Source of the DNA: Amnibacterium kyonggiense
Lineage (GTDB): Bacteria > Actinomycetota > Actinomycetes > Actinomycetales > Microbacteriaceae
Reading direction: 5' to 3'
Length of the DNA: 64,000 nt
NCBI RefSeq assembly: GCF_004364555.1
Contig: NZ_SOAM01000002.1
Location: forward strand, 806,001 to 870,000
In this document: in pieces, positions 3,307 through 6,568 of the stretch
Layout of the letters: every line of letters begins with the position of its first letter
Numbering within the stretch: the stretch's first letter is position 1
The notes under the pieces: model-generated
Database searches by the model: none
What the model was told of the DNA's origin: nothing
Seen by the model: only the letters and a program-made list of their open reading frames with translations
Made by a program: the position numbers and the translations under genes

Positions 3307-4032
3307 TCAGGCGGAGGCGAGGAGGGCGGTGCGGATGCGGGCCGCTGCCGCGTCGGCCGCCGCCGCGGTCTCGCCGCGGACCGACACCGGACCGCCGAGC
3401 GCGGCCGCGAGCATCGCGTCCGCGAGCGCGGGGTTCTTCGCGAGCACCGGGCCGTGCATCCGCGTGCCGATGATTGAGCCGTGCCGGACGCCGTCCGACC
3501 CGCGGCCGTCGCCGACGCCCCGCCGCACGACGCCGAGCGGCGGCACGCCGGCCTCGAGCACGAGGCCGCGGGAGTGGTTCTCGTAGCCGACGAGGTCGCC
3601 CTCGGTCGCGCGGACGACGAGGTCTCCCGCCGCCCGCGACGGCAGCGGCTCCGCGATCGCCGGGACGAGCCCGAGGCCGTCCAGGCGGCCCTCCGCCAGC
3701 ACGATCGCGCGGGTCAGCGCCTCGAGCCCGGTCCCGACGGCGAGCACCGGCACGCCGTCGTCGATCCAGCCCTCGAGGTCGTCCTGCACCTCGCGCAGCG
3801 CCGCGAGGAGCGCGGGCAGCACCGGGTCGGTCGTCGATCCCAGGACGACCGCGACGGGCGTCGAGGTCGGCGCCTCCCCCGCGGCCAGCCGCTCGACGCG
3901 GATGTCGAGGTGGCCCGCCCAGACGGCGCGCCGCGCGAGCACGAGCGCGTTCTGCGCGTCGCCGTTCACGTCCGTCAGCTCCGGGAAGAGCGCGAGCACG
4001 CCGCGCTGTCCTGAGGTCCTCGAAGGGGTCAT
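3307..4032 (-). CDS. GatD-like class I glutamine amidotransferase fold protein lacking the catalytic cysteine
   Basis: 241 aa, alignable to GatD, the glutaminase half of lipid II isoglutaminyl synthase, over its whole length. Shared features are the N-terminal FPELTDVNGDAQNALVL, GYENHS (149-154), and GTRMHGPVLAKNP (189-201) with the usual histidine (His193). The nucleophile elbow, normally AICxxxQ in GatD, reads AVGTGLE (98-104): glycine 100 replaces the cysteine and Glu replaces the glutamine-contacting position. The protein contains no cysteine at all, so it cannot hydrolyse glutamine by the known mechanism. It overlaps the MurT-like gene by 4 bases (ATGA), so the two are translated together. 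I infer a structural or allosteric partner of the ligase. Confidence 0.8.
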   Translation of the reverse strand: MTPSRTSGQRGVLALFPELTDVNGDAQNALVLARRAVWAGHLDIRVERLAAGEAPTSTPVAVVLGSTTDPVLPALLAALREVQDDLEGWIDDGVPVLAVGTGLEALTRAIVLAEGRLDGLGLVPAIAEPLPSRAAGDLVVRATEGDLVGYENHSRGLVLEAGVPPLGVVRRGVGDGRGSDGVRHGSIIGTRMHGPVLAKNPALADAMLAAALGGPVSVRGETAAAADAAAARIRTALLASA

Positions 4033-5266
4033 CCGGCGAGCCCCAGGTGGCTCCGCGTGCGGCGCATGGCATCGGCCGTGAACACGATCGTCTTGATCCC
4101 CCGGTCGGGTTCGGGCAGGGCGAGGAACTCGTCGAGCGCGCGCCCGAGGTCGGGCTCGACGCGGTCGACCGTCACGCCCTGGTAGAGGAGCTGCAACGCG
4201 ATCTCGTCGGCCTTCGACCCCGACACGATCCGGGCGCGCCCGATCCGCGCGGTGTCCGCAGGCCAGAAGTAGGAGGGGTCCCGCACGTCCGACCCCATCG
4301 CGACGAGCACCTGGTCGAGGCCCTCGTCGAGCTCGTCGACGTTGAGCTGGAAGCTCGCGGTGTTCTGCACGAGGACGAACTCGACCTGCCGACCGCGGAC
4401 CGTCACGATCTCGCCGCGCCCGAAGACGGGAGACATCGCATCGAGCGCGCCGACGGCCGTCCGGGCGTCGAACGCCCCGCCGAGCAGCCGCTCCGCGGCG
4501 GCGAGCGCGCCGGCGGCGTCGACCGCGTAGTGCACGCCCTTCGCGGGCAGCCGGACGGACAGGGGTTCCCCGCGCACCTCGATGCGCGCCTCGCGCCCCG
4601 TCACGGCGACGACGCGGGTACCGGCGGTGATGCGCTGCGGTGTCGTCGCGGCGTAGCCGAGGCCGCGCGGCGCACCGGCGAGCACGGCATCGGCGACGCC
4701 GAACGGAACCACCTCCGCGTGGGGCGCGAGCGCGGTCAGCAGCGCGTCGTCGCCGTTCAGCACCACGGCGTCCGCGGCGCGGGCCGCGATGCGGCCGAGC
4801 ATCGCCTGCACCTGCTGCGCGTCGTGGAACCGGTCGATCTGGTCCGTCATCACGTTCGTGAGCAGGACCAGCCGGGCGCGGAAGCGGTCGGCGAGCCGCG
4901 CGCCGTGGCCCTCGTCCATCTCGAGCACCGCGAGATCCGCGTCGATGCGGCCGGTGATCGAGGCGCGCTCGAGGAGCGCGGACGTCAGCCCCTGCGTGAT
5001 GTTCGCGGTCGACGGGTTGGTGAACACCCGCTTCCCGTGCGCGACGAGGATCGCGACGAGCATCTTCGTGGTCGTCGACTTCCCCGCCGAGCCCGAGACG
5101 ACGACGAGGCCCTCCGGGAAGGAGGAGAGCACGTCGCCGAGGAAGCCGGGCGCGACGCGGTTGACCACGAGGCCCGGCACGGCGGAGCCGCCGCCCGCCT
5201 TCCGCAGACGGGCGGCAAGCCGAACGCCCCGGCCGATGAGCACGGCCGGGGCGTAGCGGGGAGAAC

Positions 5267-5270
<4 letters not shown>
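4029..5270 (-). CDS. MurT-like Mur ligase, divergent
   Basis: 413 aa Mur-ligase fold protein. P-loop GSAGKSTTT (60-68), LEMDEGH (116-122) and the [10 protein letters not shown] segment (138-147) match the MurT central domain. Known MurT activates the D-Glu alpha-carboxyl of lipid II with ATP and transfers ammonia supplied by GatD. In this copy the C-terminal motifs are altered: the usual KNPAG region reads QNTASF, and the DGxDxSWxWD region reads [13 protein letters not shown]. No cysteine is present, so there is no zinc ribbon. It overlaps both sigA (5267-5270) and the GatD-like gene (4029-4032), forming a tight operon. The ligase fold is sure; the transferred group is unknown. Confidence 0.8.

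Positions 5271-6568
<1,298 letters not shown>

Follow-up and report, generated by a model that had tools for sequence, protein, structure and literature searches.

The sigA operon of Amnibacterium kyonggiense, in the 64,000-nucleotide stretch analysed here (contig NZ_SOAM01000002.1, positions 806,001 to 870,000; the window), carries directly downstream of sigA two genes whose products resemble MurT and GatD, the subunits of the D-glutamate (D-Glu) amidotransferase, but lack the cysteine (Cys) nucleophile of GatD. Judging from sequence comparisons, the slot occupied by this pair probably encodes the ligase that places the first bridge residue on the α-carboxyl of D-Glu in B-type peptidoglycan, the pair no longer making its own ammonia. 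In B-type walls that carboxyl bears the cross-bridge (PMC9603630; this and the other papers are cited from extracts of their text). Like MurT, the MurT-like subunit would phosphorylate the D-Glu α-carboxyl (position 2 of the lipid-linked precursor); the amino group of the residue that begins the cross-bridge, and not glutamine-derived ammonia, would then attack the acyl phosphate. The incoming residue would be a D-diamino acid in B2 walls, e.g., D-diaminobutyric acid (D-DAB) in Clavibacter, and the dead GatD subunit may be retained as a structural partner completing the active site. We infer each of three things: what the pair acts on, which amine enters and what GatD does.

The locus belongs to a class called type a below (sigA-linked, Cys-less GatD, MurT without the zinc ribbon) and has the following features:

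5267..6568, minus strand: sigA, encoding the principal sigma factor and lying upstream in the operon

4029..5270, minus strand: MurT-like ATP-dependent ligase without zinc ribbon, 413 amino acids

5073..5093, minus strand: P-loop GSAGKST of the MurT-like ligase

4518..4520, minus strand: codon of Asp251; type-a MurT rows have Asp here (100%), Cys-type rows Asn (98%)

4278..4280, minus strand: codon of Asp331, the equivalent of Staphylococcus aureus MurT D349, kept

4071..4073, minus strand: codon of Asp400; type-a MurT rows have Asp or Glu here (100%), Cys-type rows Thr (100%)

3307..4032, minus strand: GatD-like subunit, class I glutaminase fold without the nucleophile, 241 amino acids

3733..3735, minus strand: codon of Gly100 (GGG), aligned with the nucleophile C94 of S. 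aureus GatD

3454..3456, minus strand: codon of His193, the equivalent of S. aureus GatD H189, kept

The sigA stop and murT start overlap by 4 base pairs (5267-5270), as do the murT stop and gatD start (4029-4032), which confirms the position inside the sigA operon proposed in the initial annotation. Its description of a Cys-free pair with Gly100 at the GatD nucleophile position and an intact MurT P-loop was equally accurate. There is no Cys among the 241 residues of the GatD-like protein, and Gly100, within VPVLAVGTGLEAL, aligns with S. aureus C94; the MurT-like protein has none among 413 residues, its P-loop is unbroken, and a 13-residue C-terminal stretch aligns with S. aureus MurT ADGRDTSWIYDAD, with Asp331 retained. 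The total absence of Cys from proteins of this size could be due to chance, and some related pairs do have Cys elsewhere. Chance does not explain the non-Cys nucleophile site, because it recurs in every readable sigA-linked relative. The glutamine pocket GGGGQD (GGG..D..Q of Cys-type GatD) is also gone from the GatD-like protein, which has Ser66 and Leu72 instead. The pocket columns are Gly and Gln in 100% of the Cys-type GatD rows and are mostly changed in type a. The catalytic His is present as His193 in the window, and several type-a relatives are without it.

In the MurT-like protein the alignment shows K64, N90, E117, D119, E120, R285, N303, and D331 retained, and across 180 type-a rows the ATP, Mg, and acceptor residues are kept at ≥90% per column. 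Streptococcus pneumoniae MurT uses K59, D112/E113, N85, and R304 for ATP, Mg, and the acceptor (PMC6085368, extract); K64, D119/E120, N90, and R285 were equated with them by our own reading of the alignment. Asp251 (for Asn) and Asp/Glu400 (for Thr) are new invariants of type-a MurT in the same 180 rows. A diamine pocket at Asp400, considered by analogy with the acidic residues of MurE and expected in the GKGHE loop, was rejected: the alignment, whose MurE-like row set had MurF-like rows mixed in and L416 missing, puts Asp400 elsewhere, and no pocket is claimed.

Pfam assigns the GatD-like protein to GATase_3 (50.1 bits, cut-off 27) and the MurT-like protein to Mur_ligase_M (47.5 bits, cut-off 24), with MurT_C (PF08353) at 21.2-24.3 bits, under its cut-off of 25. 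Matches to the NCBIfam MurT and GatD equivalogs are far under the cut-offs (NF045635, 93.6 bits vs 800). The AlphaFold models have mean predicted local distance difference test (pLDDT) values of 95.3 (GatD-like) and 90.5 (MurT-like), and their best PDB matches are MurT/GatD crystal structures. The window genome has a single PF08353 match, and its nearest named relative is Amnibacterium setariae, with 92% MurT identity.

A survey of 249 genomes of the window's family found a match to our MurT profile (A1, E ≤ 1e-20) in 201. Besides type a, the sigA-linked type c has a zinc-ribbon MurT and a GatD that lacks the catalytic His and bears His or Gln in place of the nucleophile, and the Cys-less type e occurs in two genomes of genus g53; types b and d keep the Cys, and sigA is absent from their stretches. 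Not one of the 123 readable sigA-linked loci has Cys at the nucleophile site (G 86, H 17, A 13, S 4, Q 2, N 1), whereas Cys stands there in 80 of the 83 loci without sigA in the stretch; the latter count comprises loci from the family and other families of the order, and some genomes enter the set more than once. Cys is equally absent from 80 further type-a loci, one from each of 80 genomes (G 58, A 12, S 4, T 4, N 2), 78 of them with sigA in the stretch. Among the other families of the order a MurT match was found in 94 genomes; all 48 read have Cys, and none has sigA in the stretch. The initial annotation had named Cys-containing orthologues at the same locus as the sign of simple decay; none was found in the 123 and 80 loci, and the Cys pairs of the family lie away from sigA. 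A second, Cys-containing GatD, also raised there, gave a mixed picture: both kinds of pair are held together by six family genomes that were read (G159, G209, G066, G054, G124, and G163, several of them fragmented assemblies), and 23 of the 249 have Cys types only. It is also worth mentioning two unusual loci: L018 (G005), whose stretch contains no sigA, combines a divergent MurT, placed on a very long branch, with Asn where GatD has its nucleophile, and the highly reduced 0.93-Mb genome G015 retains a sigA-linked pair (L285) with FLAISNGL, and no Cys, at the nucleophile site.

In a MurT tree of 143 rows made by a quick method, type a forms one clade (67 rows; Shimodaira-Hasegawa-like approximate likelihood ratio test, SH-aLRT, 99) and types c and e a separate one (16 rows, SH-aLRT 98), with the Cys types outside both. 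The starred branches force at least two changes; long branches (L018, L285, and others) leave the finer structure of the tree unsure. Except for L018 and L024, the two Cys-less lineages are linked to sigA. The median ratio of nonsynonymous to synonymous substitution rates (dN/dS) in six genera is 0.06-0.23 for murT and 0.10-0.32 for gatD; the pair is under purifying selection. Simple decay of a canonical pair was ruled out, with no Cys in the readable sigA-linked loci, Cys kept in other copies, and purifying selection. That the pair is a decaying or regulatory remnant, a pseudoenzyme preserved by where it lies in the sigA operon, is very improbable: the lost nucleophile and glutamine pocket would fit, as would the higher dN/dS of gatD than of murT in all six genera tested, but the MurT catalytic residues are kept at ≥90% per column in the 180 type-a rows, dN/dS stays at 0.06-0.32 in a widespread pair, and another ligase occupies the slot in most genomes without it.

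Named relatives were taken from a scan with the sigA C-terminus, in which the best 80 of 501 confirmed loci all match the window at 100% identity over 84 residues, so that genera with a divergent sigA end are absent from the set. Downstream of sigA in these best 80 of 501 loci stands a MurT-like gene in 65, a gene for a CofE-like ligase in 12, both in none, and neither in three (L209, where the contig ends, L253, and L254). The nucleophile site is non-Cys in all 61 readable GatD proteins of this set (G 48, A 7, H 3, Q 1, N 1, S 1). Among the holders of the pair are Clavibacter, whose sigA loci have the Cys-less form, Rathayibacter, Agromyces, Cryobacterium, Leifsonia, Subtercola, Agreia, Mycetocola, Frigoribacterium, Frondihabitans, and Herbiconiux. 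Holders of the CofE-like gene include Salinibacterium xinjiangense, a Lacisediminihabitans metagenome-assembled genome, and Agromyces seonyuensis, and two other Salinibacterium species have the pair instead. Pair-holder genera other than those with a paper cited below presumably have B-type walls too. Beyond the family, B-type walls occur in Erysipelothrix, Acetobacterium, and Eubacterium limosum. In the extracts of the respective papers, B-type walls are reported for Clavibacter michiganensis (PMC9603630), for Subtercola, Agreia, and Frondihabitans (PMC5945732), for one Agromyces (PMC5217419), for Lacisediminihabitans and Salinibacterium (PMC7033078), and for Rhodoluna lacicola (PMC4156110).

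The CofE-like gene is the usual substitute for the pair. In genomes without a MurT match, it is the next gene in 21 of 28 sigA loci. Three such proteins from the slot belong by Pfam to PF01996, the F420 ligase family, and none of the three matches the MurT models; the NCBIfam F420 equivalog cut-offs were unmet in the two CofE-like proteins scanned. A strong match (>300 bits) occurs in 37 of the 249 family genomes, none of them among the 201 MurT-positive genomes (Fisher 1.1e-34; genomes not independent), and weak NF045635 matches in some of the 37 (best 2e-6) were taken for other Mur ligases. In the 24 carriers whose sigA was located, the CofE-like gene directly follows sigA 21 times; in G020 one gene intervenes, in G094 the two are unlinked, and G044 is not assessable. 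Each of ten genera (g7, g9, g13, g57, g58, g74, g76, g79, g84, g85) includes both MurT-positive and CofE-positive genomes. Weaker CofE-like matches accompany MurT in G053, G123, and G147. As separate observations, the CofE-like gene of genus g53 (L289, L290, L405) directly adjoins the Cys-less pair and in G123 also adjoins sigA; a diaminobutyrate--2-oxoglutarate transaminase gene lies between sigA and the CofE-like gene in G020 (L395:1939-3264; 625 bits, above cut-off), and another, cut by the end of the stretch, lies downstream of CofE in L402.

Outside the family, a search of 297 genomes of the order gave a CofE-like domain in 27, which belong to families f12, f18, and f6. It shares one frame with an AsnB part in 22 of the 23 stretches read, L302 having them in two frames. 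These fusions (L275-L277, L295-L314) are about 800-1000 amino acids long and occur in three families of the order; their AsnB domains were Pfam-confirmed in three scanned fusions, and the CofE-like part there rests on profile A3. The AsnB nucleophile of the 23 is Cys in 16, Ser in four (L275, L295, L298, L305), and unreadable in three (L308, L310, L311). MurT and AsnB-CofE never occur in one genome of f12, f18, or f6 (5 vs 16, 15 vs 7, and 16 vs 4), and the fusions are, from their sequences, a candidate alternative D-Glu amidotransferase. In the window's family the CofE-like ligase stands alone, not fused to AsnB.

The distribution of FemAB (PF02388), which we take to comprise A-type bridge enzymes, is complementary to that of the slot ligases. 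It was found in 33 of the 249 family genomes, namely in 22 of 34 empty-slot vs 11 of 214 filled-slot genomes (Fisher 3.6e-15; related genomes) and, by genus, in 12 of 17 vs 8 of 68; the profile search gave no FemAB match in the window genome. An empty slot here means Cys-type pairs only (23 genomes) or the absence of both ligases (11 genomes, of which three are <90% complete); direct reading showed an empty slot in nine of the former and six of the latter. The co-occurrence with wall type that the initial annotation proposed to examine could be approached indirectly: several holder genera are B-type in extracts of papers, FemAB goes with the empty slot, and an unrelated ligase replaces the pair. 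The MurE motif, read at 19 of 20 loci (L433 unread, L420 apparently mis-extracted), is DHHPR or DHQPR in six of the seven filled-slot genomes read and DFHPR in the seventh, G209; the empty-slot, FemAB-positive G003 has DDDVH, near the DDPH/DNPR of five genomes of other families, few genomes being involved. G005 has DDEPH; this departure of some family genomes from the filled-slot forms was noted at loci L416 and L432.

A further marker is an ATP-grasp gene (PF14397, sugar-transfer associated), present in 46 of the 249 family genomes and without a match in the window genome: 34 of the 37 CofE carriers, 7 of 15 type-c genomes (as a neighbour of the pair), three empty-slot genomes, and two others. 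Five of those near the CofE-like gene are:

L395:4084-5115: ATP-grasp gene

L396:3581-4693: ATP-grasp gene

L397:3776-4804: ATP-grasp gene

L399:3907-4929: ATP-grasp gene

L407:1418-2449: ATP-grasp gene

Both unrelated ligases are thus uncoupled from a glutaminase in the window's family, and their relatives elsewhere mostly couple both. Because of this difference we infer that the nucleophile used by the slot ligases of the family is not glutamine-derived ammonia. In vitro, the S. aureus complex of MurT with GatD C94G loses glutamine-dependent amidation and keeps amidation with free NH3 at pH 8.5 (PMC3266927, extract); since it does so, a Cys-to-Gly GatD can still support a ligase working with a free amine. 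This result fits a bridge amino acid and free ammonia as nucleophiles equally well. The main rival explanation takes the second course: the pair would still amidate D-Glu, with free ammonia or that of another glutaminase, the GatD site having decayed. This we regard as unlikely. It has the C94G activity on its side, together with the amidated D-Glu reported in Clavibacter michiganensis muropeptides (PMC9603630, extract) and the GatD fold and residues shared with the Cys types. Against this, the same carboxyl carries the bridge in B-type walls according to that source, a Cys-type pair coexists with the Cys-less one in the six genomes named above, and amidation alone predicts neither replacement by a CofE-like protein without a glutaminase domain nor the rarity of FemAB at the filled slot. 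The distribution evidence favours the bridge ligase.

The ligase might instead form an amide on another acceptor, such as an envelope or cofactor carboxylate, the link to the wall being only a family marker. The CofE-like occupant, as a member of Pfam F420_ligase, a family known for F420 glutamylation, speaks for such an acceptor, and because the family forms a single clade, few independent events stand behind the wall link. This explanation is nevertheless improbable in view of the conserved acceptor-binding Asn90 and MurT architecture, the separation of CofE-like and MurT genes in f12, f18, and f6 as well, the complementary distribution of FemAB, and the diaminobutyrate transaminase in the same gene row of G020.

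Several observations weigh against a bridge ligase in the slot. Asp400 is aligned, by profile, opposite an F-D-D motif near the C-terminus and not opposite the lysine-binding loop of MurE. The amidated D-Glu of C. michiganensis (PMC9603630, extract) is also explained by free ammonia. L018, L024, and L289, of which the last two come from one genome, are Cys-less without sigA in the stretch. Cys-type pairs stand alone in 23 of the 249 family genomes, counting G247, which has a second, unread match, and 11 of the 249 have neither ligase; the MurT search scored the six best candidates per genome, so second copies may be missed. In G053 and G123 the weaker CofE-like gene lies beside the MurT/GatD-like pair. 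The FemAB matches are weak and partial, although all 33 pass the cut-off; 12 of the 34 empty-slot genomes have no match and 11 of the 214 filled-slot genomes do, and relatedness among the genomes makes the Fisher values too strong. Finally, G016, of the window's own genus, has only a Cys-type pair and no FemAB match, yet its MurE motif is DFHPR, as in the filled-slot G209.

A more detailed scheme is tentative. The slot after sigA may have been filled at least three times, by MurT pairs of type a and, independently, of types c/e, both with a dead GatD, and by the unrelated CofE-like ligase, each of them without the glutaminase, GatD or a fused AsnB, on which its relatives in other families draw; the ATP-grasp enzyme might then attach a further residue to the bridge, in which case type a would go with the one-residue bridges of B2 walls and CofE or type c plus ATP-grasp with the two-residue bridges of B1 walls.

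In the titles and abstract beginnings of the open-licence literature, no description of the pair in Microbacteriaceae or of a named B-type bridge ligase was recognisable. If a bridge ligase is indeed encoded in the slot, assayable candidate genes are at hand for the bond between the bridge and the D-Glu α-carboxyl of B-type peptidoglycan, and the loss of the ammonia source would explain how an amidotransferase becomes a peptide ligase. Unrelated ligases could then serve the same job at one chromosomal slot, and the AsnB-CofE fusions would give other families of the order a putative second way to amidate D-Glu.

Among known systems, the window pair is closest to MurT/GatD of S. aureus, S. pneumoniae, and Mycobacterium tuberculosis, with which it shares two adjacent subunits, the Mur ligase middle domain, the class I glutaminase fold, the P-loop, the Mg ligands, the acceptor Asn, the D349 equivalent, the GatD His, and the best structural matches. 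Unlike them it has no nucleophile Cys, no glutamine pocket, and no zinc-ribbon cysteines, lies in the sigA operon, has Asp251 for Asn and Asp/Glu400 for Thr, and stays far under the equivalog cut-offs. CofE (PF01996) belongs to another Pfam family than the window pair; CofE-like and MurT-like enzymes both form amides from an activated carboxylate. FemABX and AslA likewise add bridge residues to wall precursors, but they are tRNA-dependent or ATP-grasp enzymes acting on position 3, and FemAB is rare in the genomes where the slot after sigA is filled.

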